Below, piece after piece: positions 34,666-57,620 of a stretch of 64,000 nt of DNA. The notes beneath the pieces were generated by a model. The model saw only the letters and a list, made by a program, of their open reading frames with translations, made no database searches and had not been told where the DNA came from. The DNA is from Deroplatys truncata (Eukaryota > Arthropoda > Insecta > Mantodea > Mantidae): the NCBI GenBank assembly GCA_030765065.1, contig CM060976.1, positions 56,218,539 to 56,282,538 on the forward strand, given 5' to 3'. Numbering within the stretch: position 1 is the first letter of the stretch; every line of letters starts with the position of its first letter. The position numbers were made by a program, and so were the translations under genes.

Positions 34666-35531
34666 TGAGGCAGTATTTTATATCACAACACTGTGAATGC
34701 CAGAGTGATTGTAGTGTAAATTAGCATTATTGTATGACAATGATTTGGGATGTTTGTCCATTGTTAGGAAATAAGTTTACACGGCCTCACTGAAACTGAC
34801 AATAGGAGCGGGTAACAATGTAGCGAGGGGGTGAGTTGTTGATCAATTAGAAGAGACAAACAAATGACGTCAGAGTAGCGTGCCTTTCTTTAGAAATGGA
34901 GGGAATATCTTCCCTAGAGCATATGTGTTCGTAATTTTGATTGGATATAGAAATAGACGCTAATGTTGGCGCGCTTTATTAACCAATAGCAGCTCTGTTA
35001 TAATGTTTAGGCATATCGGGGTGAGGAAGTATAAAAAGCTAAAGCCAGAGACGGGTAACGTTCAGTCCAACAGAATCATTCGCGGGTTATACGTCGCGCA
35101 GTTCTACAGAATAATTCACAAGGCAAACGTAGCCCAGTTCATCAGAAACATTCACGCGTTAAACGTCGCGCAGTTCTACAAAATCTCTCGCGTCGTAAAG
35201 TAAGTTAAAAGATGTGAAATACGCGAATTAATAATGTGCGGCAAATAAGTGATTATAGTTACATTCCAAAATATAACAGTTTAGTCAGGCATGTATCAAA
35301 AGTATATCTGTGAAATTAATGAAGTGTGACGGCAATAAAAGTGTAAAAACAAATTCTTTTATCAGTGTTATCTTTTAGTAACAACTCCTTTCCGTTTACA
35401 CACCCTGTTCAAGAGATTTGCTCGACTGAATAATAATAATAGCTAGCCGGAGGACAAAGAACTCAAAATTTAAAATAGTAAAACAATAACAGGCGCTCAG
35501 CAAATAAGATAACACGAACGATACCGCGACA
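34666..35531 (+). repeat. 5' LTR of the gag-only element
   Basis: 866 bp. It contains a CRE (tgacgtca, 34866), a TATA box (agtataaaaag, ~35027), three imperfect ~40-bp repeats around 35055-35185 (attcnc..gttaaacgtcgcgcagttct), and an AATAAA signal near 35333. These mark U3, R and U5 in the expected order. Confidence 0.85.
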
Positions 35532-35929: not shown

Positions 35930-37350
35930 ATGTTCTTCAGAAGTGGTAGGATTAAGAAAACAATGTCTACTAATAATACAGAAGAAATAATCATGGAAGG
36001 GGATAATGTAACAGTTAGCTGTAATTCAATACAGGTTACAGAAAATAGCTCAAACAATGTAGGATTTGAGGGAGGAAATATTAGTGAAGAAAGTGAGAAT
36101 AGAAAAGCAGGAAATGTTAATTTTGATGCTGGTACGATGATGGAAATATTGAGAAATTTTGGTGAAACATTAAATAAGAGTATTAGGAGTACAAATCAAT
36201 TAAGGGAAGATATTGGTAAGAATAATGAGAAATTAGAAAAACTAACACAGAACATGGAAAAGGGTAATGAGAAATTAGAAAAAAATAGATCAAAACAGGA
36301 TATGGAAAAGAATAATAGGGAATTAAGGGAAGATATTGGTAAGAGCTTAGAACAAAACAGAGAAGAAATTGAAAAGAAATTATGGAGCTAGATAGTAGTA
36401 TGATAAGAATGAGAAATGAAAATCAGGAAATAATAGCAAGTAAGATAGGAAAAGTTTCAAAGAAAATGTCAGACATGAGCAGGGAAATATCTAACCAAAA
36501 AAGTGAGGTTAATAATAAAATTGAACATGTTGATGTAAAATGTACAGAGTTAGGTAGCCAAATGAATAGCACTTCAAGTGAGCTCAGAGAGATGATGGAG
36601 GCTACGAATGCAGATTTAATTCAGGCGCAAGTTAATTTCAGAGGGGAGATATCTGAAATTCGGAAGGAGTCGGAAACACAAAGAAATAAGTTGTCTGAAG
36701 AAGCTAAAGTTTTGTCTATATATTTGGATCAAAAACTAACTTCTGAAATTAACAAGCACCAAGCTGTTCACTATGAGAACAATAAAAAATTGGAACAGAC
36801 AATAGAAAATGTGCAAGGTACTGTAAATAGGTTAGAATTGAATTCAAGGGTCAATATATGTGATGTTAATGTATCTGATGTACAGAATAATGATAGAGTA
36901 TGACTAATAATGTGAGTGATGCGGCGGCTTCATCCATAGCTCACGCTGAAACTCAGAGTGCACAAGTAACGTTAGAGAATTTAAATATGGGAATAAGGGA
37001 TTTGCAAAACTATAATTATATCTTAAGTGATTTGCCACTTCCAAAATTTATTTGAAACTCCAATCCAGTACAGTTTATTGCAGACTTGTCAGAGTATTTT
37101 CAAATTAAAAAGATACCGGAAGAATTGAAAATGATAGTTGTCAAAAGAGGTTTGGACCAGAAAACTTTAGATTGGTTTCAAATGGTATCATGGGGTGAAA
37201 TGTCATATGAATCCTTTAAGAGGCTATTTATGAACAGGTTTTGGAAGGTTACGATACAGCTACGAGCAATGTTTAGCCATAGACAATTTAATCCAGGAAA
37301 GGGAATAGCAATGACCGCTAAAAAAAATGAAAGAATACCAAGATGATGAA
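35930..37350 (+). pseudogene. Gag-like region of the LTR element (fossil, broken)
   Basis: The first two thirds are Lys/Glu/Asn-rich and strongly coiled-coil in character, with repeated RELREDIGK and NEKLEK motifs. The last part (IKKIPEELKMIVVKRGL, WFQMVSWGEMSYESFKRLF) looks like the capsid fold of Ty3/gypsy gag proteins, which assemble the particle around the RNA. No zinc knuckle was seen. The region is interrupted, and no attempt is made to join its parts. Confidence 0.6.
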
Positions 37351-37922: not shown

Positions 37923-38897
37923 TGAGGCAGTATTTTATATCACAACACTGTGAATGTCAGAGTGATTGTAGTGTAAATTAGCATTATTGTATGACAATGA
38001 TTTGGGATGTTTGTTAATTATAAGCATTGTTAGGAAATAAGTTTACACGGCCTCACTGAAACTGACAATAGGAGCGGGTAACAATGTAGCGAGGGAGTGA
38101 GTTGTTTATCAATTAGAAGAGACAAACAAATGACGTCAGAGTAGCGTGCCTTTCTTTAGAAATGGAGGGAATATCTTCCCTAGAGCATATGTGTTCGTAA
38201 TTTTGATTGGTTATAAAAATAGACGCTAATGTTGGCGCGCTTTATTAACCACTAGCAGCTCTGTTATAATGTTTAGGGGTGAGGGAGTATAAAAAGCTAA
38301 AGCCAGAGACCACTCTGTCTGCATACTCCCTTGCATGCAGGCGCCTTTTTAGAAATCACCCACTAACATTCGGTTTGCTTCGGCGGTACCGGACACCAGT
38401 TCACCTTCGACTTTCCCTTCCATCACTGTAGAGTAGTTAGTACATGGTAGGGGAGACGATGTATATCCCTTTCGGATGATCGTCACCTGGTGTGGCGGAG
38501 GCGGGGCCACACCCAAAAAAAAACGGGTAACGTTCAGTCCAACAGAATCATTCGCGGGTTATACGTCGCGCAGTTCTACAGAATAATTCACAAGGCAAAC
38601 GTCGCCCAGTTCATCAGAATCATTCACGCGTTAAACGTCGCGCAGTTCTATAAAATCTCTCGCGTCGTAAAGTAAGTTAAATGATGTGAAATACGCGAAT
38701 TAATAATGTGCGGAAATAAGTGATTATAGTTACATTCGAAAATATAACAGTTTCAGTCAGGCATGTATCAAACGTAAATCTATGAAATTAATGAAGTGTG
38801 ATGGCAATAAAAGTGTAAAAACAAATTCTTTTATCAGTGTTATCTTTTAGTAACAACTCCTTTCCGTTTACACACCCTGTTCAAGAGATTTGCTCGA

Positions 38898-39350: not shown

Positions 39351-40320
39351 CTTCAAGGATTAGGTATTACACCTGTTCCATCCTTTTTTCTTACTCCCAT
39401 CTCTTTCTTGGGCGTCCGATGTCTCTTTTTCCTGGGGGTTTATATTTGTTAATTAATACTGCTATTCTATTTTCACTCATGGGGTTTATGTGCTCTTTCC
39501 AACAATGTTCATTTTCTTCAATTTTATCATATAATTTATAAATATTCAGTTCTTCTGTAATTGTTTCATTTCTTATTAAGCCTAATCTGGTGCATCCTTT
39601 AGTTCTCCATAAGAATCTCATTTCCGCCGATTGAATTTTACTTTTGTCCTTTTCTTTTATTATCCAAGATTCGCTGCCATACATGATCACCGGGACTGCC
39701 GTGGTCTTGTAGAACTTCAGCGTTGTTTCTTTCCTTGTATTATGTTGTAGAGTTCTTGTTATTGTTGAACAATAACATATTCAACATATTTGTTGAAAAT
39801 TATTTATCTTATTATCTATATACCTATCCACATCGAAACTTATGTCACAACCCAAGTAATTAAAATTCACGACTTGTTCCAGGATATTATTTCCAATGCA
39901 TATTTTTGTTCTCACTGGCTTTTTCCTTGGTGAGCCATTACTTTGGTCTTTTTTAAGGAAATCTTTAAATTATATTTGTTTCCTAGTTGGTACATTATAT
40001 AAATAGAGTGCTCTAGATTATCTTCGCTGCTCTGTAGTATTACTACACCATCTTCGTATAACATATTTAGATATGAATTCTGATTTAGTTGTGTTCCTGG
40101 ATGCACTTCCTTCTTCCATGTTTTATAACATCGTCTATATATATTGAATAAAGTGGTTGAAAGACTACATCCTTTTCTTACTCCTTGATTTGTTATTATT
40201 GGTTCTGATTTTGTTGCGCCTGGGTTTATAATAACTTTAGTGTTTGTATATATACTTTTAATACCTCTAGAATGTGCCGAGGATATCCCCGATTGTCCAT
40301 TGTTTTCCATAAATTAGTTC
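39350..40320 (-). pseudogene. LINE reverse transcriptase 3' part, 5'-truncated
   Basis: The reverse strand encodes the reverse transcriptase fingers and palm (GVRKGCSLSTTLFNIY; then LYEDGVVILQSSEDN, where the catalytic YADD has become YEDG and is dead; then KYNLKISLKKTKVMAHQGK). After a frame break come the C-terminal blocks MYGSESWIIKEKDKSKIQSA, EMRFLWRTKGCTR and GKRDIGRPRKRWE, common in insect endonuclease/reverse-transcriptase LINEs. The 3' end is marked by a short (GAA)n tail near 39340-39352, joined to a SINE fragment. The 5' end is inverted (next entry). Confidence 0.8.
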
Positions 40321-40445: not shown

Positions 40446-41107
40446 TAATTTCCCTTTCATTACGTTTCCTTTTCAGCTTCCAAATGTCCTTCTAGGTTTC
40501 GATGCATATGGCAGTGACGGACAGATGGCGTGCATGCTTGCTTAAAGTAAAGGGTACTCCCCGTAGACACTAGAGGGCTGCTTGGTCGACGAGACGTATA
40601 GACGGCTCCAAAAGTTTTCCGTTGCACCGATAGCGGGGCAAGGGGTGCTTATCAAGAGGTTATTTCAGGTATCTTAGCTCATACCTGCTCTACAAGGAAG
40701 GTTAAGGGATGTAACAGGCTAAACAAAATAGCATTCCAAAACATTTCCCTTAGACTTGGCTGTAAGAATGTAATAACGTGAAAAGAAAACAGCAATAACA
40801 TTACAACACAGCGACATAAGCAGTATACAAACTAATTTTTAGGAATTAGAAGCATCATATAACAAGCAAGTGTTAAAACAAAATGGTTTGGTGTTCAATG
40901 TTTACTGCTTTCTCTACCCATTATCAACTAACATATGTTCTTTATTTTCATAATGTCCTTATGAAGTATGGCTTTTCTGTGCATCGTGACAGCAATTTAG
41001 GCCAGAAATTATTTAAAGTTACAATATAAGTTACACTTTTCCCAATTTGGTTGCATGCAAGATGCCGTAACGACAACCAGCCGCTTATCTATTTCACAAC
41101 TCATCGT
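40446..41107. other. Unassigned stretch
   Basis: No gene or known repeat recognised. A GC-richer patch at about 40510-40640 resembles a SINE 3' half in composition, but I could not align it. Confidence 0.4.
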
Positions 41108-42330
41108 TTTACTGTCTCTACTATTTACCTATAATAAGTAGGGAAAGTGTTGTACTCCACCCAAAAATTAAAAAACGAGATTCACCGGAAATACACTTTT
41201 TGAGGCCCACTGAATCCAAAGAAAGCATTTTTACTTTTCCTACTACGCACTTACAGTAAGCAGAGGAAGTATTGTATTCCACCCAAAAATTTAATAACGG
41301 GATTTACAGAAATCCACGCTTAGAGGCTCCCTGAATCCAAAGAAAGCATTTTTACTTTCTCTACCACGTATACAGAAGTAGAGAAAGTATTGTATTTCAT
41401 CCAAAAATTCAATAAAGAGATTTACCGGAAATACACGTTTTGAGACACCCTGAATCCAAAGAAAACATTATTACCTTCTCTACTTCATAGCTACAGGAGG
41501 TAGAGAAAGCATTGTATTCCACCCAAAAATTCGATAAACAGATTCACCGGAAATACATATTTTTAGACCCCCTGAATCCAAAGAAAGCATTTTTACTTTC
41601 GCTACTACGTATTTACACGAGGTAGAGAAATTATAGTATTCCACCCAAAAATTCAACGATATTCACCGGAAATACTCGTTTTGAGACTCCCTGAATCCAA
41701 AGAAAGTATTTTTACTTTCTCTACTACGTAGTTACAATAAGTAGAGCAAGTATTGTATTCCACCCAAAATTCAATAACGAGATTAATACTTGGAACGGAA
41801 ATACTCGTTTTCAGACTCCCTGAAACCAAACAAAGCGTTTTTACCTTCTCTACTACGTAGCTACAGCAATTAGAGCAACTACTGTGTTCCACCCAAAAAT
41901 TGAATGAGATTCACCGGATATACACGTTTTGAGACCCCCTGAATCCAAACAAATAATTTTTACTTTCTCTACTACGTAGCTACAGGAGGTAGAGAAAGTA
42001 TTGTTATCCACCTAAAAACTGAATAACGAGATTCACCGGATATACACGTTTTGAGATTCCCTGAATCCAAAGAAAGTACTTTTACTTTCTCTACTACATA
42101 GTTATAGTTAAGTAGAGAAAGTATTGCATTCCACCCAAAAATTCAATAACGAGATTCAACGGAAATACGCATTTTGAGACCCCTGAATCCAAAGTAAGCA
42201 TTTTTACTTTCTCTACTACGTAGCTATAGTAAATAGGGAAAGTATTGAGTTCCATCTGAAAATTCAATGTCCTAATTTCACCAGAAATCACGTTTATAAC
42301 CCCTGAATCCAATGAATTTATTTTTCGAAA
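41108..42330 (+). repeat. Ten-unit tandem array of the R1 head
   Basis: Ten head-to-tail units of about 119 bp begin near 41110, 41230, 41350, 41470, 41592, 41711, 41840, 41959, 42080 and 42203. Each opens with ttactttctctactacgta and carries its inverted partner agtagagaaagta (a perfect or near-perfect hairpin). Next come tccacccaaaaattc, caccggaaatac and cctgaatccaaag. Only the last unit continues into a normal R1 body. Confidence 0.9.
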
Positions 42331-42904
42331 ATGGTCCAAGTGTGTGTGTGTGTGTGTGTGTGTATCCACGAATAGCATAACTCAAAAGCAAAAGTTTGGT
42401 TAAAAACCGAACTTGGTGTTTAAGTACAACTTCTTCCAAGAATGCGACACTGAGATTATAAAGAAAATGCTCCACTCCAAACTAGGGTTTACATTTTTCG
42501 AAATTTTTATTCTTTCAAATATGACTCTAAGGATTTTGATTAAAATACATATGTTTAATCTATTTTCATGATAAATAGAATGTATATCTTTTATTTTCTA
42601 GGAATAGTCTCTAAATTGGTATTTATTGTTAATGACATTTGATAATTAGTAAATCGTAAGAGAGAGAGACAAAATCGTACCACACAACAACTGTAGATCT
42701 TGTTAAAGCACAAAATTTAAATCAAATAACATTTTTATTTTATGACAAATAACTTTTATATGTTACCTATTCTGAATGTTTCTTTGTTATTACTTTGAAT
42801 TTTCAAATACTTTATAGTTCTCTCTACTGCAAATCTATTGTTTTCTCTCTCTCTTTCTTTCTTTCTCTCTCGTGTTCATACAAAGAGAACAGAATTTCAA
42901 ATCT
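42203..42904 (+). repeat. R1 body interrupted by a SINE
   Basis: R1 TG-run (42340-42364), body and start of tail. It breaks at the 'aaatctatcacg' word (about 42899-42911) and resumes at 55098 with tatcacgtagcgatc, giving a 12-base target duplication (aaaKctatcacg) for the SINE in between. Confidence 0.85.
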
Positions 42905-43416
42905 ATCACGTCTGTGGCTCACACTTAGGAGCTCGTGGGTTGGATTCCTCTGGCCGAACTTCCTGACCCATAGGTTTTTTCGGGGGGTTTTCCCGGGGCG
43001 CCAAGCGAGTGCTTGGAAGGATTCTCACATCCCCGAATTTCCGGACCTCCATTTCATCTCCATTCTAATTTCCCTTCATCTTTCATTCGTTGGTCTCTTT
43101 CAGGGTTCGAAGTGTCGACGATGGTGTTTCGGTGCAGTGTGACTTTATCCGTCCCTCACCTTCTGGCTGGCTGTCCGGAGTATCCTAACTTCCTTGAGGA
43201 GCGTTGGACACCCTCTGTGCTGGGTGGAGTCCCCGGTCTACCTGTCCGTCTGACGGGGAGCCTCTATCTGAAAACTTAGGGACCCTATCATTCCTGTGCC
43301 GTTTTTCCTGGTTCCGGACGCCCGGTGTCTGTCCCGCCTCATCCTGCCTCCCGGAGACGCCCCCTTGTGAGGCGTAGGCACAATATCCACTATGTGGATC
43401 AATGCCGAGTCCCCTC
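42905..43416 (+). mobile_element. Long SINE, split by the Polinton-like element
   Basis: tRNA-like head (tctgtggctcacact ... gtgggttggattcc), the shared central block (tttcagggttcgaagtgtcg, 43099) and the GC-rich 3' half up to gagtcccctc. The last ~25 bases (cgtagccaaccaatccaaag) lie beyond the Polinton at 55078-55100 and match the SINE end at 58806-58838. Confidence 0.88.
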
Positions 43417-44297
43417 AGTAGCTTATATAGGACAGACCTGGAGCAGTTTTTTGGGCATATATGGGAAAGGATAGGGAAAACGTGACTGGATGGGGCGGTC
43501 CAAGGAGGAAAATGGGTTTATATGGGAGAGATAGGGAATACGACAGTATTAATAGAAATGTATGTTCAGAAACAAAGGAGATGTCGACAACTGATAAGGT
43601 GTAGTAATAGAAATGTATGTATTTCCCCTCACTTCCCCTCTTCCCCACACCCCACAGTAGATATATTAGGAGAGAGCCAGAGCACAGAGAGATGCCGACA
43701 AGTGATAAGCTTTTTGTTCTACGCCGACAAGCCCGCCGGCTCCCTTTGAGGCCTCACATGCCGCCAGGTCTCGTGTCGTTGGGCCCCGCCCCCTCTCTCT
43801 TTGTGCGCTTACCTAATGCCGACCGTGTCTGTGCCGACAGGTCCTACCCCCCTCCCCCATGCGGTCTAGTCGCGTGCCGTGGCGTCCTGACTTGAGGGAT
43901 TTGTTTTCTCGACGCCTGCCGCCCCTCGGCAAATCAATTAGGTAATGTTCGTTAAACATTTTTGAAAAAAAAAAGAATTGTCATTTTATGAGTACTAATG
44001 CATGCATATCTAAGGCTCCTCGAGCAATTAAGTTTTTTTGATTAATTAATTGTATATGAATTGACTCGAGCGCAAGTGGTAGCGTGTGTATAAGTAGCAC
44101 GCTCACGGAACAGTCCGCCATGTTATGAAATAAACCCCGCAACCTACTTCTGTCTGAGGATGACTGAAATGTTTCATGTATACATTAGCTGACAACGTTA
44201 GACGCTTTCACCACATTAATAGACTTTAAGATTGCATCCCGGATCTGTATACAGTCATTAGCGGGCAATGTCAGTAATTGTTTTCCTAAGTGCTCTG
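43417..44297 (+). repeat. Left terminal inverted repeat of the Polinton-like element
   Basis: 881 bp, reverse-complementary to 54191-55071. It contains a TATATAGG box near the outer end and an array of short words such as gccgacaagtgataag and tgccgac. The inner part is gattaattaattgtatatg and a gtgtataagtagcacgctc block. Confidence 0.92.
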
Positions 44298-44930
44298 AAA
44301 AACCCCCAGACACTCAATGTAAATACCTTTTAGCTCGTAGAATTTCCATCACAAACTGTGGTAAAACCCTAGTCTAGACAATTTTTTCCCTGATAATTAA
44401 TGATTAAGTTTCATAGCTCTTATTTCTTTCAATAAAATATTGCGAATAAAGTATTCAGAATTCAGATTGGCGGAAAGAAATATTATATACGGTATTAAAA
44501 ATAAATAAGCGTGGTGAATACTACATATGTTATTAAAAATAAAATAAATACGGATAACATTATAGTTAAATATTATAAATGTTATTAAAAAACTAAATGA
44601 TTCGGTTAACATAGTTGAATACTATATATGTTATTAAAAATAAATACGGTTAACATTATAGGTGAATATTACATACGTTATTAAAAATAAAAAATGGCCT
44701 CGCTGATCAATGACTACAATTAAATATTTTTTATTAATTAATTGTATATGAATTGACTTGCGCATTTTGGTTATTGCGCTATGTCTCCCTAACGTTTCCA
44801 GATCTAGGATCATTCCAGCTAGTTGCGCGCTTCTGCCGTCTACCTTCTAAAGTAAAGTTGCACGCTTCTACCATCTTCATTCTAAAGTAAAGTTATAGAA
44901 CAATGAGATAAAATCTAATCAATTCTTTAG
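44298..44930. repeat. AT-rich ~60-bp imperfect tandem units
   Basis: Within 44480-44700 the motif 'gaatactacatatgttattaaaaataaa...cggttaacattatag' recurs four times at about 60-bp spacing. At 44728 a second copy of the TIR word attaattaattgtatatgaattgac appears. Confidence 0.65.
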
Positions 44931-45830
44931 AATGTGCCGCGTCATTAGGGTATTGTTCCAAGTTATCCGTGATGCCTGGGGTCGAATCCTAGGAGTGATT
45001 ACAAATTCAGATTCTAATAACTCAGAGACTAATTACGATAAAGACGTCAAATAACGTTTATTACATTAAGGTCATTAGGTAGTTTCTTGTGAATGTATAT
45101 TTGGGTACCTGGTGTTCTGGGTTCGAATACCGATAAAATGTAATTTAATTATAAATTTAATAACTCCTAAACTAATTAAGATAAAGACGCCAAATAAACT
45201 TTATTGCGTTTATGTTATTAGGTAGTATCCTGTGGATGTGTAATTAGATACCTGACGTCCTGGGTTCGATCCTTAATTTTTAAATCACCATTATCTCAGA
45301 AACTAAGAGAGGCAGAGGAGTGGACCAAAGCATGATTGATAAGTTCTATACTGTGTGATTAACGCTGTATATAATTGCCAATCAGTTGTGCTTGATTCGA
45401 TTCCCCATCTTTTAATGACTTCATTAATTTTCCTCTGTACACTAGAATATATCACTTAGATCGATGATGTACCTACATACAGCTTTGTTTAACATGTTCA
45501 GCTAGTATCATAAATTATTTTGTTCCTGGTGTTCTGGTTTCGAATACCGATTCAATGAAATTTACTTACAAATTTAATAACTCGTAATCTAATTTAGATA
45601 GACATGTCAAGGTAAACGCAAACAGAGTATCTAGTCCTTAAATATCGTTATCATGACAAATATTACTTTAAAGTACTCAGATCGAATCCCGAAGGGATGA
45701 TTTCATATATCTTCAAGCCTATGGATCATATCAGGTTCTAATAAAGATTAAATACTTGATGCTGATGTGGGGGAGCTAAAATACATTTATTAAAAGTATT
45801 ACCGGGTTCGATTTAGAAGCTTAGAATCTG
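44931..45830 (+). repeat. Tandem units with regularly spaced B-box-like motifs
   Basis: Seven motifs of the GGTTCGAATCC type (near 44986, 45117, 45258, 45400, 45534, 45681 and 45808) are spaced 127-147 bp apart. They sit within imperfect units that also share 'aactc..aaactaatta.gataaagacg.caaataa'. An eighth, looser motif (aggttcaaatc) lies near 46438. They look like degenerate Pol III B boxes, but no paired A boxes or tRNA folds are evident. Confidence 0.65.
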
Positions 45831-46895
45831 TGTAACTATGGAAAAATTGCTTTTCTCGTGATTGTAGTGAAATGTAATCGTCTTCCTGTGAGAAGATTAA
45901 GGGAATGAAAACATGAGATAATGTAGTATATACATACATTTAACTAAATAAGGAGGAAAATCTTCTACGTTACCTTTTAAGCTTTTACTTTAAGTATTGT
46001 GATAATACAGCTGGAATTAACCATGGTACAATAGGTGGTGGTGGTGGTGGTGGTGGTGGTGGTGGTGGTGGTGGTGGTAGGCTTTGAATTTGAAATATAT
46101 GTCTGAATGAGCGTGTGAGAATGCTTCTCTTGCTGCTGTGACAGCATAAGCATTTAGTTATGAGACGAGTTTAAACGTGTTTGATGCTGTCAGACATCCT
46201 GTCTCTAGATGTGACGTCATAAACATCCTGCTTCTGGGCGTGAGCTTATATGGTTGAGATTAATACACGTTGAGCGATCATACACAGCTGGTTATGGAGC
46301 GAGTTTATGAATGATCTAAAAGGTTCGTGCTCCCTCTATAAATATGTTATAGGGAAAGGATGCTCTCCTGAAACATTAGGCATCTAGACAGAAATTGTTC
46401 ACAGAGACAGTAGACGTCAGGTTGAATGGGACAGACCTCAGGTTCAAATCTTTAATGGGGTACGGACCCCCGCCTTTTGCCTGTCATGTCTCCAAAACCA
46501 TCCTAACAGCGTAACATTACGTTACAACGCCACGTAACCACAACATGTCGAGTGCGAACATGGACAAAGGATGCTCTCTGGAAACATTCGTGGAAAAGGA
46601 TGCTCTCTGGAAACACTCGTCATCCGCACAACGGATTGTCCCCAACATTTCCAGATTTCGGACCGTTCAGCATCGTGGCGCGCCCCTGTCATCTACATTT
46701 CGATGAAATTTTACCTCCTGTATTAAAGTTTGGTGCCTTGTATAGATCTGCACAACTTGCATTACGCTGTGTGTCCCTAGCGTTTCCAGCTCCTGAATCG
46801 TTCCAGCTAGTGGACTGCCTCTACCATCTTCAAGTCAACGATCTGTTACTCTGAATTAAAGTTTGGTGGTCTGTATAGCTCTGTACAACTTGCAT
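45831..46895. repeat. Mixed repeats: (GGT)n and ~130-bp duplicated words
   Basis: A (GGT)n run occupies 46036-46079. 'aaggatgctctc.ggaaacat' recurs near 46377, 46567 and 46598. The words ccctaacgtttccag / cctagcgtttccagctcc and 'acaacttgcattacgct' recur at 44787, 46748-46800 and 46878. The last one leads straight into the 21-bp array. No coding region. Confidence 0.65.
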
Positions 46896-48357
46896 TACGC
46901 TAAGTAACAGCCTCATCACGCTATGTAACAACCTGATCACGCTATGTAACAACCTGATCACGCTATGTAACACCCTCATCACGCTATGTAACAACCTGAT
47001 CACGCTATGTAACAACCTGATCACGCTATGTAACAACCTGATCACGCTATGTAACAACCTGATCACGTAATATAACAACCTGATCACGCTATGTAACAAC
47101 CTGATCACGCTATGTAACAATCTGATCATGTTATGTAACAACCTGATCACGCTATGTAACAACCTGATCACGCTATGTAACATCCTCATTACGCTATGTA
47201 ACAGCCTGATCACGCTATGTAACAACCTGATCACGCTATGTAACAACTGATCACGCTATGTAACAACCTGATCACGCTAAGTAACAACCTGATCACGCTA
47301 TGTAACAGCCTCATCACGCTATGTAACAACCTGCTCACGCTCTGTAACAACCTGATCACGCTATGTAACAGCCTCATCACGCCATGTAACAACCTGATCA
47401 CGCTATGTAACAACCTGATCACGCTATGTAACAACCTGATCACGCAATGTAACAACCTGATCACGCTATGTAACAACCTGATCACGCCTATGTAACAACC
47501 TGATCACGCTATGTAACAATCTGATCACGCTATCTAACAACCTGAACACGCTATGTAACAACTGATCACGCTATGTATCAACCTGATCACTCTATGTAAC
47601 AACCTGATCACGTTATGTACCAACCTGATCACGCTATGTAACAGCCTCATCACGCTATGTAACAACCTGATCACGCTATGTAACAGCGTCATCACGTTGT
47701 GTAACAACCTGATCACGCTATGTAACAGCCTCATCACGCTATGTAACAACCGGATCACGCTATGTAACAACCTGATCACGCTATGTAACAATCTGATCAC
47801 GCTATGTAGCAATCTGATCACGCTATGTAACAACCTGATCACGCTATGTAACAGCCTCATCACGCTATGTAACATCCTGATCACGCTATGTAAAAGGCTC
47901 ATCACGATATGTAACAACCTGATCACGCTATGTATCAACCTGATTACGCTATGTAACAACCTGATCACGCTATGTAACAGCCTCATCACGCTATGTAACA
48001 TCCTGATCACGCTATGTAACAACCTGATCACGCTATGTAACAGCCTCATCACACCATGTAACAACCTGATCACGCTATGTAACAACCTGATCACGCTATG
48101 TAACAACCTGATCACGCAATGTAACAACCTGATCACGTTATGTAACAACCTGATCACGCCTATGTAACAACCTGATCACGCTATGTAACAATCTGATCAC
48201 GCTATCTAACAACCTGATCACGCTATGTAACAACTGATCACGCTATGTATCAACCTGATCACTCTATGTAACAACCTGATCACGCTATGTAACAACCTGA
48301 TCACGCTATGTAACAACCTGATCACGCTATGTAACAACCTGATCACGCTAAGTAACA
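46896..48357. repeat. 21-bp satellite array with higher-order repeats
   Basis: About 69 copies of ACGCTATGTAACAACCTGATC with single-base variants. Variant order repeats at a distance of 672 bp (32 units): the 'cgccatg' variant at 47379 recurs at 48051 (as 'caccatg'), and the one-base-longer 'cgcctatg' unit at 47485 recurs at 48157. Because 21 is a multiple of 3, both strands stay open for up to 200 codons, which is not evidence of coding. Confidence 0.95.
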
Positions 48358-48585
48358 ATAAATTTTTATGCTATGGTCTTTTAAGCATTCAAAATAATGG
48401 CCGAAATCGATTTTATCCATACCTGCCCTGGTGATGCCCTTAGCTTTCTTAATTGTCTGCCCTCCGTATCTGTATGCATATAACTTTGCTCTTATACCGA
48501 CATACTCCTCCATAACCAAACCGTCCAATTCATCCTTGAACAACCCAATCTTTTTCCTGTTGGCTTGCTTAATACCCTTTGTGGG
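48343..48585 (-). pseudogene. PolB-like DNA polymerase C-terminal relic (fossil)
   Basis: The reverse strand encodes GLFKDELDGLVMEEYVGIRA, then KLYAYRYGG and KKAKGITRAGMDKI. These resemble the C-terminal 'FKDE..G..M.EFVGLR.KMY ... KKAKG' segment of protein-primed type B polymerases of Polintons and related virus-like elements, which replicate the element DNA. Only this end is present, abutting the satellite array. It is a broken remnant. Confidence 0.6.
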
Positions 48586-49320
48586 TCACCTTTTTCCCAG
48601 AGTAGTCACCTTTTTCCCTTGAACGAGTCACCTTTTCCCTGAATACGTTACGTGATGGGCATGTCTAGAACATTGACATGAAACATATTTTCATGAAGTT
48701 CTCGCTTAAAGTCGCTTTCAAGGTTTAGTATCTCCCTCCTATTCCATATCTCTCCTGTATTTCTCAAAAATAGCTGTAACGATTTTGAGTAAAATATCAT
48801 ATGTTTGCAACACCACCGTCGCCGCCAGTGCCACCACCACCACCAACTACTACTCACATTTACTGAAGGCGGGTTGGTGATATGTGTTATGGCTGAAGAC
48901 AGCTCGTACCCCTGCAGGCTAGGCTGTTGGATAGCATCTAACACTCACCCTAGGGTGTTCTAGGTAAGGAATATATTTAATCTTGTTTTAAGATAAAAAC
49001 AGAAAGAAACGGGTCACCAAATGAAAATGAAGATTGTGAATTCTGGAAACATTATTCACGATTCAAGAAGGAAAGAATAGTGCAATGAAAATGGTGTAGT
49101 TTTCATTCTGTAAATGTTCTTTTGGCTCAGGTTGTATCTTATAGTGCATCTATCCTCTTTCCATAAACAGTAATTTTAGCGTTACCTATTGAAAGCTCTA
49201 TTACATTCTGAAATTATGCAATTAAATATTACAGTAATAATGAGATGCACAGATGCACAGGTATGTAAGCTTCAGCATTATAAATATAAAACTATTTAAA
49301 CGAATATAAAGAAAGAAGGA

Positions 49321-49355
<35 letters not shown>

Positions 49356-49444
49356 GGAGGGAGGCAGGGATGGAGAAAGGGTAAAATTCAATTTAATTTA
49401 GTTAAAATTTTATGATTTTTAAAAATTGGTTTACATGAATGCTG
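48586..49444. repeat. Short repeats, R1 fragment, (GAAA)n
   Basis: 'gtcacctttttccc' occurs three times within 48594-48640. An R1 body fragment (ggtttagtatctccc ... taacgattttgag ... atcatatgttt) lies at about 48718-48810. A CACCAC-rich patch follows at 48815-48846. A GAAA run occupies 49314-49356. No coding region seen. Confidence 0.6.
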
Positions 49445-49640
49445 TTTATCTACTTTTTCTAATATTCTAAGTCCTTTTTTTATTTTTTGCGTAAATATCT
49501 TTTTCATGTCTATTTCTGCAATATTTCCCGAAAGTGTAATTCCATACTTTAAGTATGTGCAAATAAATGATAGCGTAGTAGATCTGCTTAACAGTTTCTT
49601 TATCCATATTATTCCTTGCCTGTTTCATTACATTTTTTGT
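49445..49640 (-). pseudogene. LINE reverse transcriptase fragment
   Basis: The reverse strand shows, across two frames, ARNNMDKETVKQIYYA and YLKYGITLSGN, followed by a KKIFTQKIKKG-like block. This is the 'SYLKYGI.LWG ... LQKK' region after the catalytic palm in jockey/CR1-like LINEs. It is too short to classify further. Confidence 0.55.
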
Positions 49641-49764
49641 ATAAGTTATTAAAAACACTTAATTTTTCTGAGATTCTTTCATTTCTAGTCCAATTTCAAG
49701 ATATTCATTTTCACTGTGTACTCTTCTTCCAAACACTCAAGCCTCCTCTCATAAAAACCCTCCC

Positions 49765-50260
49765 TTATGCCATCTTTGTTCTTTTCAGGCAATGGAGTTG
49801 AAAGTTCTGTATGGGAACTGCAGACGCCACCTTTACACTTTCTCTTTCTTCAAATTCCTCACCTGTTATTAAAATTGCTGAAGGAAATGTTCGATCTGGA
49901 TTTACTATTTCAATGTCCTTCACTGTGGTGATTACTTCTGAATGGAATCCAGCTTCATCATCAAACTCATTGGCGATTGAATAGAAGAGCAACAATTGTT
50001 ATTTGGCTACTATTGTCTAAGAAAGGCGGTACATACATACGCCTCCAGTTTTGTACAATCGTACCTTGTCAATGGCATTTGCTTGCTTCATTATTTTCTT
50101 TATGTTCTCATAATATCATTTCAGGGAATTTAATTCACACTGGATGATCTTCCTAGAATTGTACTCATTTGCAATTTATTTCCATGTCTCTTCCTTACGC
50201 TTAGCAGAGCTATCACTCATTGTGTTCTGTTTCTTAGATATGAATTGATCCAAGCCTTTG
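49765..50260 (-). pseudogene. SANT/Myb-like DNA-binding protein relic
   Basis: On the reverse strand near 50060-50225 the N-terminal part reads SDSSAKRKETWK, IANEYNSRKI and ELNSLK, with YYENIKKIMKQANA and then VRLYKTGG. This is the trihelix of Myb/SANT-like domains ('W..IA.EFN.......L...Y.N.K......K.GG'). A more open C-terminal part (FDDEAGFHSEVITTVKDIEI, NPDRTFPSAILIT) follows at 49780-49990. Such proteins bind DNA and often belong to transposons. Whether this came with the Polinton-like element or as a separate insertion cannot be told. Stops interrupt it. Confidence 0.55.
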
Positions 50261-50289
50261 TTAATCCTTGAACTGCTAGTTTTCTAGTT

Positions 50290-50830
50290 TAATAATTAAC
50301 GCTAGGACAGCCCGACCTTTCCCTGTCCTCTCTAACATCCAGAGGATCATTTTGACCCCTACCATATAACATTAACATTCTGCATCATTATTTCAAATTT
50401 ATATTTGTATTCAATTAGTATATTTTAATGCTTTTACACGATTTATATGCCAGTTAAAATGCTGAATTGTGAATTCTGCAACAAAACACAAATAATATCA
50501 ATTATTAAAAAATAAATAAATGTCATTGAAACCCATAAAACCCAAACAAGAGTAAGCAAATCAGGGGTTTACTTAGTTTTAATTGCATAGAAAAATTGAA
50601 TTATTCATGTTTACAGCAATTTTAGCTAGTTCATACTCTACACAATTGACACATTTATAATCAGGTTTCTTTGTGCATTTTCTTACAAACAGTGCACTTG
50701 GAGGTAGTTTTATTACACTTGCAGAATTTAAGAACTTGACATTTATGGTATTTCTGTGTTATATCGTCTTCATTTTCATAATCGCCTGTAGTCCTACAAA
50801 GCGAGCGACTCTTCACATAGAGTGTAGTTC
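50290..50830 (-). pseudogene. Possible piggyBac-like 3' relic
   Basis: The word gatcattttgacccct (50345) is typical of piggyBac-like element ends. The reverse strand near 50690-50760 gives a cysteine-rich string CQVLKFCKCNKTTSKCTVCK, similar in spacing to the C-terminal zinc-binding tail of piggyBac transposases. The evidence is thin. An unrelated zinc-finger scrap is an alternative. Confidence 0.3.
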
Positions 50831-51000
50831 TTACGTTTTGTTACTTGGTTACATAGTTGCTACGTGTTGTTACGTTGTGTGACGTTTCTGGTTACGAGAT
50901 GTCACGTGATGTTGCGTGGTTATGCTACTTAGTATGACGTCTTGTCATGCTGTTATGTTACGTTGTGTTACGTCTTGTTACGTGGTTACGTTAGATGATG
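50826..51000. repeat. Imperfect TTACGT/GTTACG tandem words
   Basis: About a dozen 'gt(t)acg(t)' words at ~13-15-bp spacing (for example gttgttacgttgtg, gtgttacgtcttgttacgtggttacg). Similar to the GTAAC content of the 21-bp satellite, but a different unit. Confidence 0.7.
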
Positions 51001-51282
51001 ATAGGAATGATAAGATCTAGAACAAAAAGAATGTAGGCTTACAGAGATTTGTAGTTTTAATTCACTTCTTTTTATTAATCCTTGACACAAATTAAATAGC
51101 GCTTCACTAATATCCAGATCTGTGAGATTTTTTTTAATGTCTATTGTTTTTTTGTTTTTTGATGCCTTCCTTATACCTCCTAACAACTTCACTTGTTAGT
51201 GGTATTAGAGGCGGTAGCGGCGGTAGGGCTTGATATGTCAGCCGTCTCCTCACTCGTCTGTGGTATGGCTGGCTGTTGAAAC
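51001..51282. other. Unassigned stretch inside the Polinton-like element
   Basis: A 68-codon reverse-strand open frame (50986-51192) has no known domain. A ggcggtagcggcggtag word precedes the next array. Confidence 0.4.
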
Positions 51283-51291
51283 CGAAATCTG

Positions 51292-51324
<33 letters not shown>

Positions 51325-52107
51325 GTATAGCACGTGTAAAACAAGAACTTCATAAAATATTGAAAAATTCTTACCGCTCAGCGGTTGGCGAATTGTTGAC
51401 CCTCCTGGGAAACCGGGGGGCGCAGACGACTCGTCGCTACCTCCGTCAAAATAAAGACTAAAATCTGAAAATAATAATAATAATAATATAGCACATGTAA
51501 AACAAAAACTTCATAAAATATTGAAAAATTCTTACCGCTCAGCGGTTGGCGAGTTGTTGACCCCCCTGGGAAACCAGGGGGCGCAGACGACTCGTGGCTG
51601 CCTCCGTCAAAATAAAGATCAAAATCTGAAAATAATAATAATATAGCACGTGTGAAACAAGAACTTCATAAAATATTGAAAAATTCTTACCGCTCAGCGG
51701 TTGGCGAGTTGTTGATCCCCCTGGGAAACCAGGGGGCGCAGACGACTCGTCGCTGCCTCCGTCAAAATAAAGACCAAAATCTGAAAATAATAATAATAAT
51801 AATAATAATATAGCACATGTAAAACAAGAACTTCATAAAATATTGAAAAATTCTTACCGCTCAGCGGTTGGCGAGTTGTTGACCCCCCTGGGAAACCAGG
51901 GGGCGCAGACGACTCGTCGCTGCCTCCGTCAAAATAAAGACCAAAATCTGAAAATAACAATAATATAGCACGTGTAAAACAAAAACTTCATAAAATATTG
52001 AAAAATTCTTACTGCTCAGTGGTTGGCGAGTTGTTGACCCGCCTGGGAAACCAGGGGGCGCAGACGACTCGTCGCTGCCTCCGTCAAAATAAATACCAAA
52101 ATCTGAA

Positions 52108-52162
<55 letters not shown>

Positions 52163-52304
52163 TAGCACATGTAAAACAAGAACTTCATAAAATATTGAAA
52201 AATTCTTACCGCTCAGCGGTTGGCGAGTTGTTGACCCGCCTGGGAAACCAGGGGGCGCAGACGACTCGTCGCTGCCTCCGTCAAAATAAAGACCAAAATC
52301 TGAA

Positions 52305-52344
<40 letters not shown>

Positions 52345-52400
52345 TATCACATGTAAAACAAGAACTTCATAAAACATTGAAAAATTCTTTCCGATTGGCA
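51283..52400 (+). repeat. (TAA)n-linked tandem array of hairpin-bearing units
   Basis: Six to seven units of about 155-195 bp start near 51283, 51468, 51627, 51785, 51952, 52106 and 52305 (the last is a truncated variant). Each has a variable (TAA)n spacer, then gcac(a/g)tgtaaaacaagaac, then three potential hairpins in ~80 bp: ACCGCTCAGCGGT, CCCCCTGGGAAACCAGGGGG (8-bp stem, GAAA loop), and GCAGACGACTCGTCGCTGC. A diverged unit continues at 52376-52600 with another (TAA)n run. Length variation is mainly in the TAA spacers. Confidence 0.9.
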
Positions 52401-52407
52401 GATGCTC

Positions 52408-52464
<57 letters not shown>

Positions 52465-52600
52465 GTAGTATAGCATTTGAAAAACAGGAACTTCATAAAA
52501 TATTGAAAAATTCTTACAATTCGGTAGTTGCAGAGCGCTTGACCAGGGAAAACCGGAGACGCCGACGTCTCGAGGGCGTCTTCTTCAAAATAAAAGACGC

Positions 52601-54190
52601 TAGTAATTTACACGTTAGATTTTATTTATTTATTTACTTAGTTTTTAATAGAAAAGTTATATTATTAAGTTAATTTACTTTATTGCGAATAGCTTATACA
52701 GGGAAAATGTCGATGTATTTTTAAACACCTGAGAAATTTCTATTACAAATAAGGCACGTGTATTTCGCGACACAATCATGGAAAATATCTCTTTTCAACG
52801 TGATGGTTGCCTAAAATGAATACTTAACTAAACTGTTCACATTTCAGAAAAATTAAACTGTCTAGCTATTATCTTTTAGAATGCTCAGCTATTTACTTTA
52901 TTGCGAATAGCTTATACAGGGGAAAATGTCGATGTATTTTTAAACACCTGAGAAATTTCTATGACAAAATAAAGCACTTGTATTATTCGACACACTCATG
53001 GAAAATATCTCTTTTTAACGTGATGGAAACAGACTGGAAGTTTTTACTAAATAAAATGCACAAGAGGAATGAAACATTAACTGATGAATGTTCGATCATT
53101 GCATGCAAACATGAAGTCCCAGGATCGATTACTACCGGTTACCCTCGAAAGTTTTTAAACTCTGAAGAATGCTTACCATTCGGGTGTTCGGGTGCCTGAA
53201 TCATGATCGTATTTGAGCAACGATCCTGCAGCCGGTGGCGGGTATCCTGCTGGAGCTGGGTGGTCGCCTCAGCTACGTTAGCAGAACTGATTGCTGAAAA
53301 CGTAATTAATTTACGGGTTAGATTTTTATTTATTTATTTATTTATTTATTTACTTATTTTTTAAGAAAAGTTATATTATTAAGTTAATTTACTTTATTGC
53401 GAATAGCTTATACAGGGAAAAATGTCGATGTATTTTTAAACACCTGAGAAATTTCTATGACAAAATAAAGCACTTGTATTATTCGACACACTCATGGAAA
53501 ATATCTCCTTTTAACGTGATGGAAACAGACTGGAAGTTTTTACTAAATAAAATGCACAAGAGGAATGAAACATTAACTGATGAATGTTCGATCAATGCAT
53601 GCAAACATGAAGTCCCCGGATCGATTACCGCTGGTTACCCTCGGAAGAATATTTATACAGAACATTTTTTATTCGATTCGTAGGGTGTTCAAGTAATTGT
53701 ATTTTGTCTAGAAAGGAATATAATTCACTTGGTGAAAACACATATTTAAATATACGGAATAATAATTACTCAACAGGATGAGTACTTAACTAAACTGTTC
53801 ACATTTTTTGAGAATTCGCGCAGTTAGCTATTAAATGTAGAATAAGCTTGTCTAAAATGAATACTTAACTAAACTGTTCACATTTCAGAAAAATTCAACT
53901 GTCTAGCTATTAACTTTTAGAATGCTCAGCTATTTACAAATAAAGGTCAGTCATTAAAAACAAGAACGCAAATATAAGTTAAATGTACTAAGTAATAAGT
54001 TAACTTTTTAATGAAAATGAATTGGTGATACAACTTACCAGACATGATGTTCGATGAAATTTCACGTTGAAAGAATAAAGTTTGCAGAGTGCTTAGATCG
54101 CTGTGTTCTCACGATACTGTGAAAATGATTGGAGAAGCTGCTGCTTTTATATCATTTCCTCCGATAAATTCTGAAGGGGTGAGAGTTATG
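52601..54190. repeat. ~500-bp direct duplication and shorter repeats
   Basis: 'tttattgcgaatagcttatacaggg ... cacctgagaaatttct' occurs near 52678, 52898 and 53392. A longer unit including atggaaaatatctc and tttttactaaataaaatg is duplicated at 52890-53160 and 53388-53640, 98% alike by eye. 'gaatacttaactaaactgttcac' occurs near 52818, 53782 and 53857. Short open frames in the two duplicates are copies of one another, not separate genes. Confidence 0.8.
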
Positions 54191-55071
54191 CAGAGCACTT
54201 AGGAAAACAATTACTGACATTGCCCGCTAATGACTGTATACAGATCCGGGATGCAATCTTAAAGTCTATTAATGTGGTGAAAGCGTCTAACGTTGTCAGC
54301 TAATGTATACATGAAACATTTCAGTCATCCTCAGACAGAAGTAGGTTGCGGGGTTTATTTCATAACGTGGCGGACTGTTCCGTGAGCGTGCTACTTATAC
54401 ACACGCTACCATTTGCGCTCGAGTCAATTCATATACAATTAATTAATCAAAAAAACTTAATTGCTCGAGGAGCCTTAGATATGCATGCATTAGTACTCAT
54501 AAAATGACAATTCTTTTTTTTTTCAAAAATGTTTAACGAACATTACCTAATTGATTTGCCGAGGGGCGGCAGGCGTCGAGAAAACCAATCCCTCAAGTCA
54601 GGACGCCACGGCACGCGACTAGACCGCATGGGGGAGGGGGGTAGGACCTGTCGGCACAGACACTGTCGGCATTAGGTAAGGCCACAAAGAGAGAGGTGGC
54701 GGGGCCTAACGACACGAGACCTGGCGGCATGTGAGGTCTCAAAGGGAACCGGCGAGCTTGTCGACGTAGAACAAAGAAGCTTATCACTTGTCGGCATCTC
54801 TCTGTGCTCTGGCTCTCTCCTAATATATCTACTGTGGGGTGGGGGGAAGAGGGGAAGTGAGGGGAAATACATACATTTCTATTACTACACCCTATCAGTT
54901 GTCGACATCTCCTTTGTTTCTGAACATACATTTCTATTAATACTGTCGTATTCCCTATCTCTCCCATATAAACCCATTTTCCTCCTTGGACCGCCCCATC
55001 CAGTCTCGTTTTCCCTATCCTTTCCCATATATGCCCAAAAACTGCGCCAGGTCTGTCCTATATAAACTACT
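54191..55071 (-). repeat. Right terminal inverted repeat of the Polinton-like element
   Basis: 881 bp, the same length as the left arm, with about twenty visible differences. The outer end reads ...TATATAAACTACT and is followed by the CCCCTC duplication and the remainder of the interrupted SINE. Confidence 0.92.
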
Positions 55072-55097
55072 CCCCTCCGTAGCCAACCAATCCAAAG

Positions 55098-55853
55098 CTA
55101 TCACGTAGCGATCAGCTTTAGCTTAATATGTTCTGGTTATACCTACAACGAATTGTGAAAACAAGTGATGAAGTTTTATAGGTATTAACAAGAAACAGGT
55201 GCAAAATAAGCTTTTTAAGAAGAGTGAGTAGAGAAAGTCATGTGAATGCAACACATCATATTTTAGGGCAAAAGCTCCATATGCGTGCGTCTCTGTGAAC
55301 ATAAATACAAAGCGAAAAGTCGGTTAAATACCAAACTTGATATTTAAGTTCAGCATCTTTCAAAGATGTGACAAGGGTTTTCAAGAAAATCTCCCCATCC
55401 TGAACAACGCTTTACATGGAAATATTTTTGAAATTTATTTATGACTCTAATGATTTTGATTAAAATACCCACTGTTTAAAATATTTTCATGAGAAACGAA
55501 ATATATATTTTGAACTGCTGGGAAGAGCCTCTAAGGCCTTCTTCATTCTGAATAACTTTTGTATAATTGGTAAACTCTAACAGATTCGACACATTTTTGC
55601 TACAAAAGAAATGTAGACCCGTTAAAGCACGCAGTTTGTTATACATATATTTTATGAGATTAACTAATTCCCAGATATTTTTTGTTATTGGTTTGAATAC
55701 TTTTTGTAACTGAGAAGCCTGTATTCGTTTTGTTTTTGTCGCTGTCATACAACAGCATGGAATTTCAAAGCATCACGTAGTGACATGCGTTTTGAAAATG
55801 TGACTATCGCTTTATCTACATATACTACAACGAAACGTGTAAATGTGAACTTT
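55098..55853 (+). repeat. R1 tail (rest of the interrupted copy) and a following R1 body/tail
   Basis: The tail resumes after the SINE and ends near 55265 (agagaaagtcatgtgaatgcaac). A 5'-truncated R1 body starts near 55290 (tctctgtgaacataaatac) and runs to 55853, where a fresh R1 head begins. Confidence 0.8.
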
Positions 55854-55854
55854 T

Positions 55855-56639
55855 TACTTTCTCTACTACGTATAGTAAGTAGGGGAAGTATTGCATTCCA
55901 CCCAAAAATTCGATACCGAGATTTCACCGGAAATACAAGTTTTGAGACCTCCTTAATCCAAAAAAAGCATTTTTGGAAACATGTCCGTGTGTGTGTCTGT
56001 GTGTGTGTGTCTGTGTGTGTCTGTGTGTGTGTCTGTGAACAGCATAACTCAAAAACTAACAGTCGGATAAACACCAAACTTGGTATTTACGTTCAGTATC
56101 TTCCAGAGATGCGACACGAAGATTTTCAAGAAAATCCCCCCACCCCAGACTACCCTTTACATGGAAGATTTTTCGAAAATTTTAATTTTCTCAAAAATGG
56201 CTCTAACGATTTTGATGAAAATATCATATGTTTAAGATAATGTCATGAGAAATGAAATGTATATCTCGAAATTTCTGGGAATGTCTCCAAAAGTATTCTT
56301 CATTATGAACGACTTTTGCATAACTGGTAAACCATAAGAGATAGACAAAATTTTACTACACAAAAAATGTAGATCACGTTAAAATACACAACCAATATCA
56401 TATACATTTTTGTTGTTGAGTGAGCCGTTTTCGAGATATTTCTTGTTATTTCCTTAAATTTTCCAATACTTATACTTTTTCTCAAATTCGTTATTCATTT
56501 TTACTTTCCCTACTACGTATAGTAAGTAGGGGAAGTATTGCATTCCACCCAAAAATTCGATACCGAGATTTCACCGGAAATACATGTTTTGAGACCTCCT
56601 GAATCCAAAAAAAGCATTTTTGGAAACATGTCCGTGTGT

Positions 56640-56676
<37 letters not shown>

Positions 56677-57620
56677 TGTGTGTGTGTCTGTGAACAGCAT
56701 AACTCAAAAACGAACAGTCGGATAAGCACCAAACTTGGTATTTAGGTTCAGTATCTTCCAGAGATGCGACACGAAGGTTTTCAAGAAAATTCCCCCACCC
56801 CAGACTACCCTTTACATGGAAGATTTTTCGAAAATTTTAATTTTCGCAAAAATGGCTCTAACGATTTTGATGAAAATATCATATGTTTAAGATAATGTCA
56901 TGAGAAATGAAATATATATCTCGAATTTTCTGGGAATGTCTCCAAAAGTATTCTTCATTGTGAACGACTTTTGCATAACTGGTAAACCATAAGAGATAGA
57001 CAAAATTTTACTACACAAAAAATGTAGATCGCGTTAAAATACACAACTTATGTCATATACATTTCTTTTGTTGAGTGAACCGTTTTCGAGATATTGCTTG
57101 TTATTTCCTTAAATTTTACAATACTTATACTTTTTCTCACATTCGTTATTCATTTTTTTTATGTCCTGGACATGCAAAGAGAATGGAATGCGCCACATAG
57201 CAACCAGCGTTAAAATATTTGACTATCGCTTAAAAGCTACCATATTCCCCTTGCATCTACAAGAAAATTACCAATAAGATTGACATCTCATTATCTCGAT
57301 TAACATGAACCATATGGAGAATAAGCGTTTGTAAAATTAGATTGTACAAGAGTAGAGAAAGTCATGTGAGTGTAACACATCAGATTTTTTTATGTCCTGG
57401 ACATGCAAAGAGAATGGAATGCGCCACATAGCAACCAGCGATAAAATATTTGACTATCTCTTAAAAGCTACCATATTCCCCTTGCATCTACAAGAAAATT
57501 ACAAATAAGATTGACATCTCGATATCTCGATTAATATGAAGCATATGGAGAATAGGCGTTTGTAAAAATAGATTGTACAAGAGTAGAGAAAGTCATGTGA
57601 GTGTAACACATCAGATTTTT
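55855..57620 (+). repeat. Tandem R1: two head-body units and two tails
   Basis: Two nearly identical ~643-bp head-plus-body units (55855-56497 and 56498-57140) are followed by two ~228-bp tail units (about 57158-57388 and 57389-57620). These are the youngest, least diverged R1 sequences in the window. The two TG/TC runs (55988-56037 and 56633-56692) differ in length. Confidence 0.9.

Follow-up and report, generated by a model that had tools for sequence, protein, structure and literature searches.

A probable non-autonomous Polinton and its gene-rich and palindromic relatives in the genome of the mantis Deroplatys truncata

Polintons end in AG...CT. To our knowledge, neither their replication nor their jumping has ever been seen directly, and both are deduced from the genes that they carry. 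In the available parts of the literature they are credited with protein-primed replication and an rve-type integrase (PMC6431247, PMC5718144, PMC4028283). Galileo, a transposon of the P superfamily, is known mostly from defective copies, since nearly complete ones are a minority (10 of 170 in the available part of PMC3573991). The Tlr elements of Tetrahymena were once proposed as non-autonomous Polinton derivatives; the accessible text of PMC4028283 makes the case for an ancient split and for a capsid protein encoded by Tlr itself. No family of non-autonomous Polintons or Mavericks like the one described here was found by title or abstract opening in a literature that excluded Repbase, Dfam and most subscription journals, which makes this weak evidence of novelty. 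Here we describe an element of 11,655 bp at positions 43417-55071 of a 64-kb stretch of Deroplatys truncata DNA (the window, C2:56218539-56282538 of the host genome). The element is very probably a member of a non-autonomous Polinton (Maverick/adintovirus-like) family, copied and inserted in trans.

The element, its insertion site and its siblings

That the family is non-autonomous is well supported by sequence comparison: it has the same ends as gene-rich copies, and its gene-less form lies at three unrelated sites. Movement in trans is what the ends and the target duplications suggest. The arms of the window element are 887 bp long and inverted (43417-44303 and 54185-55071), with 867 of 888 aligned columns identical; they differ by nine transitions, ten transversions and two single-base gaps. 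An earlier note on this DNA, which gave arms of 881 bp with about 2% difference, was essentially right. The AG...CT ends and the 6-bp CCCCTC duplications that it described are also confirmed, with the ends reading AGTAG...CTACT and the duplications lying at 43411-43416 and 55072-55077. The host genome searched comprises 4.29 Gb in 818 contigs, and in it the window arm has 73 matches from the best 40 of 6520 candidates. The layout of the element is as follows.

43411..43416, no strand: left target duplication CCCCTC, single at all five uninterrupted target relatives read
43417..44303, plus strand: left terminal inverted arm (block A, 887 bp), starting AGTAG, from the arm alignment
44304..46540, plus strand: block B, whose first 289 bp sit inside the arm distal to the polymerase in three gene-rich copies
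44515..44691, no strand: 47-bp tandem array of 3.6 copies within block B, from the tandem repeat listing
46541..46877, plus strand: block C, which adjoins the 21-bp array in all three siblings
46878..48358, no strand: 21-bp tandem array of 70.6 copies, adjoining family blocks at all 19 places tested of 23 listed
48358..48576, minus strand: polymerase gene relic of 73 residues, 97% identical to residues 1186-1258 of an open reading frame (ORF) of 1,310 residues
48577..51026, no strand: filler block M, joined to the polymerase relic by a junction present at 44 loci
51027..51314, no strand: block N, from block comparison with the siblings
51315..52344, minus strand: 155-bp array that can be read as 90-nt mini-exons with GT-AG introns, related to the region preceding the polymerase gene
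52345..52599, no strand: AAT runs plus a single degenerate unit that closes the array, from the tandem repeat listing
52600..53151, no strand: block E, ending in 261 bp that duplicate part of block R
53152..54184, plus strand: block R, found inside the polymerase-side arm in gene-rich copies
54185..55071, minus strand: right terminal inverted arm (block A), ending CTACT, from the arm alignment
55072..55077, no strand: right target duplication CCCCTC, single at all five uninterrupted target relatives read

For an empty-site test, both flanks were fused over a single CCCCTC and the resulting 600-bp query was searched against the genome. All 40 scored matches (the best 40 of 6,647 candidates) cross the empty junction, at 84-89% identity, and CCCCTC stands once at the exact junction in each of the five relatives read, which were drawn from the nine best rows. 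Chance is thereby excluded as the source of the CCCCTC pair. The target of the window element was one copy of a dispersed repeat; the insertion was clean and duplicated 6 bp, and empty sites for it exist among the genomic relatives of the target, in keeping with the earlier reading of the locus as an insertion. A 122-bp array and direct repeats flank the element at window 41107-42739 and 55851-57071; the direct repeats are 73% alike between the left and the right flank and 95% alike within the right flank. They represent another dispersed repeat, which also lies beside the C7 and C5:193 copies.

Both ends were read in 18 elements, with spans from 11.7 to 20.8 kb. The 6-bp duplication is perfect in 12 of these (CCCCTC in the window, TATCTA at C6:32.7, TGTAAG at C16:406, and CACGAA, ACAGCT, AATACG, CTCGGA, GAAGAC, GATGTA, AAGGAG, CTCCCG and CACAAA), matches at five of six positions in four (C7:23.8, C16:6.7, C16:469 and C2:78), and is not detectable in two (C16:332 and C16:500). 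A packaging-length constraint was considered and dropped, given the spread of the spans.

Other copies with the same interior, for which the earlier note had proposed a search, were found at two loci. The siblings at C7:23869746-23881645 (11,900 bp, duplication ACCTTC/ACCGTC, five of six positions) and at C6:32731714-32743607 (11,894 bp, TATCTA on both sides) share the block order of the window element. They vary in array length (the 21-bp array takes up 1.5 kb in the window and about 3.3 kb in C6) and in extra partial copies of R, and the C6 sibling has a deletion within M. No shared flank was found at the junctions of the three loci: flank matches between the window and C7 begin at least 218 bp from the window junction and 1,761 bp from the C7 junction, in a dispersed repeat, and the C6 flanks (714 and 593 bp) have no match to the window and C7 flanks. 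The arms of the C7 sibling start at window arm position 239-240, where a second AGTAG lies inside the window arm (arm position 240), and those of the C6 sibling do alike. The outer 238-239 bp are present on both window arms and absent from the siblings, as would be expected if one arm had been copied from the other in replication. Inverted repeats of 585 bp (79%) lie outside the ends of the C7 sibling (C7:23868917 and 23882382), which may be nested in another inverted-repeat element.

Gene-rich relatives, the polymerase junction and the tandem arrays

Gene-rich copies with matching arms, also proposed as a check, lie at C16:406, C9 and C13. The copy at C16:406453097-406469868 spans 16,772 bp and has 756-bp arms that are 99.07% identical, with TGTAAG on both sides; block R lies inside one arm and the first 289 bp of B inside the other. 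In the 8 kb read, its ORFs match rve (9e-11, in an ORF truncated where the 8 kb end), Pox_A32 (1e-6), PLA2 (phospholipase A2, 8e-13) and a double-jelly-roll capsid domain (2e-109). Asymmetric ends of this kind (arm with B, arm with R) also delimit the elements at C9:191857037-191874998 and C13:215954487-215971792, whose arms agree with most of the window arm at 88-89% identity; across these three copies, the identity to the window arm is 77-89%. The pieces read hold 667 polymerase residues at C9 and 665 at C13, and at C9 also the first 176 capsid residues. Because some copies have B in both arms and others have R in both, the window element might have been a chimera of two subfamilies. This idea was dropped: the gene-rich copies carry R at one arm and B at the other, and the window element keeps both end types and has lost the middle.

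The window element does not carry the complete gene set of a Polinton. When eight proteins of gene-rich copies (the integrase one incomplete) were compared with it by tblastn, polymerase residues 1186-1258 were the sole match. Over its 73 residues this relic shares 97% identity with the 1,310-residue ORF, which lies at C3, and the PolB-like relic of the earlier note is therefore real (48358-48576, minus strand). Many of the genomic matches to the relic (from the best 150 of 11,436 candidates) lie in open frames of 1,256-1,362 residues. The polymerase ORF contains the strings DINNLY, NNAVYGK and YMDTDS, which we take to be PolB motifs, and it is called PolB because of these motifs and the neighbouring genes. 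A PDB search with the ORF gave nothing useful, nor did searches of Pfam, PHROG and PDB with the 80-residue ORF of the relic, which was identified solely via the host genome. Scans of viral contigs gave seven pattern matches for the relic and two for part of the polymerase, none of them confirmed, and no match for a degenerate motif. Numerous long open frames matching PF03175 also occur in the host genome (152 matches from the best 76 of 11,882 candidates), in addition to the family studied here; they possibly belong to other Polinton-like lineages.

The boundary between the polymerase relic and M was probed with a 26-bp pattern, with up to two mismatches and a reversed control. The probe has 59 matches, the control none. 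Grouping of matches within 25 kb gives 44 loci, some of which retain genes or gene pieces, and M is 96.8-97.7% identical between any two of six elements. The shared junction and the similarity of M show the pattern of one founder that spread; by this comparison, a single polymerase/filler deletion product multiplied. Forms that look intermediate exist: at C16:6743990-6761782 the integrase, ATPase, phospholipase and capsid genes are kept, some split into two frames, and M replaces the body of the polymerase. A 96-residue integrase piece lies between two inverted M copies at C16:398179219-398196598, C12:192 retains 16 integrase residues, and C6:92 retains 41 residues of another ORF. Block M gave the impression of relics of other transposons; the pieces tried against Pfam had no match over the cut-off.

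The window arms differ at 19 of 886 ungapped columns (2.1%), and M differs between elements by 2.3-3.2%. These values are close, which puts the window insertion at roughly the time when the family spread. The description of the element as recently inserted therefore holds in a relative sense only.

As the earlier note had seen, the element contains tandem arrays. They comprise units of 47 bp in 3.6 copies, 21 bp in 70.6 and about 155 bp in 5, AAT runs, and shorter arrays. However, its claim that the cargo is almost entirely satellite DNA does not hold: nine array intervals total 3,152 of the 9,881 interior bases (32%), so that the interior is mostly not tandem repeat. The 155-bp array has about five copies at 51315-52120 and runs on to 52344 in overlapping rows. 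On the minus strand its unit can be read as a 90-nt exon ending at GTAAGA and an intron that contains an ATT run and closes with CAG. Three of the four inter-intron intervals in the window are 90 nt long, and the fourth (245 nt) spans a unit with an altered donor; the 90-nt exons read FGLYFDGGSDESSAPPGFPGG or nearly so, in the same phase. Before the polymerase of the gene-rich copy at C3, intervals of 129, 120 and 120 nt, all multiples of three, lie in the same open phase, each peptide begins with SGLYFG, the introns measure 79-85 nt, and splicing at the last acceptor would lead into the polymerase ORF without a frame shift; of the four intervals, only the first, at 331 nt, is a misfit. The two arrangements are alike, and the 155-bp array is therefore most likely an amplified piece of the exon-intron region before the polymerase, so that not all arrays are foreign. 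The 21-bp array has 23 listed places, nine within 12 kb of known family blocks, ten with family blocks in the adjoining fetched stretch and four untested; as far as tested, it does not appear to be a free satellite. It is tempting to suggest that, in transposons, some arrays classed as "satellite" derive from a gene of the transposon itself by amplification of exon-intron modules.

Elsewhere in the window, a relic of a Tc3-type transposase helix-turn-helix lies at 14448-14822 on the minus strand (PF01498, 9.5e-15) and a reverse transcriptase relic at 39912-40313 on the minus strand (PF00078, 4.8e-9). One 36-bp unit forms two short arrays about 3.4 kb apart (35091-35184 and 38563-38650); two overlapping ORFs between them (35930-36391 and 36373-36903) have no Pfam match over the cut-off. 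Rfam and tRNA scans of the 64-kb window gave no match.

Palindromic relatives

The 18 elements with both ends read comprise six asymmetric ones (the window, C7, C6:32.7, C9:191, C13:215 and C16:406), eight with B in both arms and four with R in both arms. In five of the eight B/B elements, a piece of R of 92-135 bp lies between arm and B. Two copies of the polymerase/M junction occur at 15 of the 44 loci, always in opposite orientation, and at ten of these they are spaced 523-560 bp apart in the same geometry. The axes were read at six of the ten loci, and all six are continuous palindromes through the centre. Counted from 48340, M ends at 539-540 on one side of the axis (6/6) and at 476 on the other (5/6, with 461 in one). 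The near-identical breakpoints suggest that a single fold-back event, whose loop measured about 64 bp, founded a palindromic subfamily. Perfect 6-bp duplications flank 7 of the 12 symmetric copies, which were therefore probably inserted already symmetric. In C16:398 and C12:192, which have different axes, the two copies of M inside one element agree at 99.6% and 100%.

By analogy, the palindrome axis resembles the trace of a displaced strand folding back on itself. Defective genomes of adenoviruses, which are protein-primed and linear, have one end copied inverted onto the other. In the literature on adenovirus defective genomes and on Polintons, as far as titles and texts were accessible, no paper linking the two was found. 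The window copy itself is asymmetric and is not a palindrome of the defective-interfering kind.

Origin of the family and comparison with known systems

The ends, the duplication and the gene-rich relatives support the earlier classification of the window element as a non-autonomous insertion of Polinton type. It retains the two distinct ends of a gene-rich element (arm and B on one side, arm and R with the mini-exon array on the other), has lost all tested genes except the 73-residue polymerase scrap, and has gained filler and arrays. In the mechanism that we propose, the polymerase and integrase of the gene-rich copies would recognise the shared ends; the helper polymerase would copy the element as linear DNA by protein priming and the helper integrase would insert the copy. 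Fold-back during replication could have given the palindromic relatives, and templating of one arm on the other could have placed the same extra outer 238-239 bp on both window arms.

Several points weigh against this account. No movement was observed, and the full window-type layout is known from only three loci. The arm of the C16:406 copy is only 77% identical to the window arm, over positions 270-847, and the gene content of the closer-armed C9 and C13 copies was read solely in 2-kb pieces. The 1,310-residue polymerase ORF matched neither PF03175 nor any other polymerase model in Pfam, PHROGs and NCBIfam. The halves beside the six axes are 94.9-97.8% identical, no closer than M between separate elements, so that the palindromes are not fresh and are about as old as the family. 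The best 23-150 candidates were scored per genome search, and the counts are lower bounds.

Among other explanations, a single gene-rich Polinton might have been inserted here and then have degenerated on the spot through deletions and growth of its arrays, with the siblings as independent decays. The ends do retain the asymmetry of the gene-rich copies, and the array length varies between 1.5 kb in the window and about 3.3 kb in C6. However, the same block order stands at three loci with different target sequences, and the polymerase/filler junction is common to 44 loci, whereas breakpoints would not recur in independent deletions; this makes decay in place very improbable, and it is already refuted unless the 44 loci are one segmental duplication. 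The earlier note's version, a Polinton shell with captured satellite DNA as foreign cargo, is improbable as well: arrays are present and the 21-bp one might be of outside origin, but the 155-bp array matches units that precede the polymerase in a gene-rich copy, the 21-bp array adjoins family blocks wherever tested (19 of 23 listed places), and arrays make up just 32% of the interior. The long arms and the palindromic relatives would also fit a foldback element from a different superfamily or a long inverted segmental duplication. The probability of this reading is negligible in view of the 6-bp duplications with AG...CT ends, the gene-rich relatives with rve integrase and capsid genes and the sibling junctions without shared flank; the gene-rich C16:406 copy and the empty sites already refute it.

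A further alternative concerns the origin of the variants and leaves the element a non-autonomous Polinton. Instead of replication errors, gene conversion and recombination between Polinton copies in the chromosomes may have produced the palindromes and the matching arms, as described for Galileo. According to the available part of PMC3573991, Galileo has deletion derivatives, terminal inverted repeats extended by inner segments and tandem repeats within them, and conversion could yield M copies as alike as those within the C16:398 and C12:192 palindromes. Against this, the symmetric copies with perfect target duplications were probably inserted symmetric, and the common breakpoints of the six axes speak for one event that was then multiplied. 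We therefore regard recombination as rather unlikely.

Taken as members of a non-autonomous Polinton family, the copies form an unusually full series of defective forms. Tentatively, and with some doubt of our own, we propose that they are defective Polinton genomes that multiply as an inherited population: palindromes and forms without genes would arise from fold-back in protein-primed replication and would be copied and inserted by gene-bearing Polintons, whose helper enzymes they would drain as virus satellites do. If so, the genome would hold a fossil record of the replication intermediates of a virus-like transposon, and mini-exon amplification would be a source of tandem arrays. Gene-rich, polymerase-less, one-end-duplicated palindromic and gene-less forms with shared breakpoints make the replication model testable from genome data alone.

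With Tlr, the window element shares the status of a non-autonomous Polinton derivative, as once suggested for Tlr; in contrast to Tlr, it encodes no capsid protein (both points on Tlr from the accessible text of PMC4028283). Galileo is similar in its gene-less copies, in terminal inverted repeats extended by inner segments and in tandem repeats within these (PMC3573991, available in part). However, Galileo has a different transposase and 7-bp duplications and moves by cut-and-paste, whereas in the window family a polymerase would copy the linear DNA of the element itself. As an analogy, the duplicated inverted end of adenovirus defective genomes resembles the palindromic relatives, but those genomes arise in infected cells, whereas the palindromic relatives are inherited insertions with target duplications. 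The closest system is the Polinton/Maverick group (polintoviruses, adintovirus-like elements), with which the element shares the 6-bp duplication, long AG...CT terminal inverted repeats and relatives in the same genome that carry rve integrase, A32-like ATPase, PLA2 and double-jelly-roll capsid genes. Unlike these, the window copy shows none of those genes and 73 polymerase residues only; it is 11.7 kb long, contains filler and arrays, and has multiplied in its defective state.

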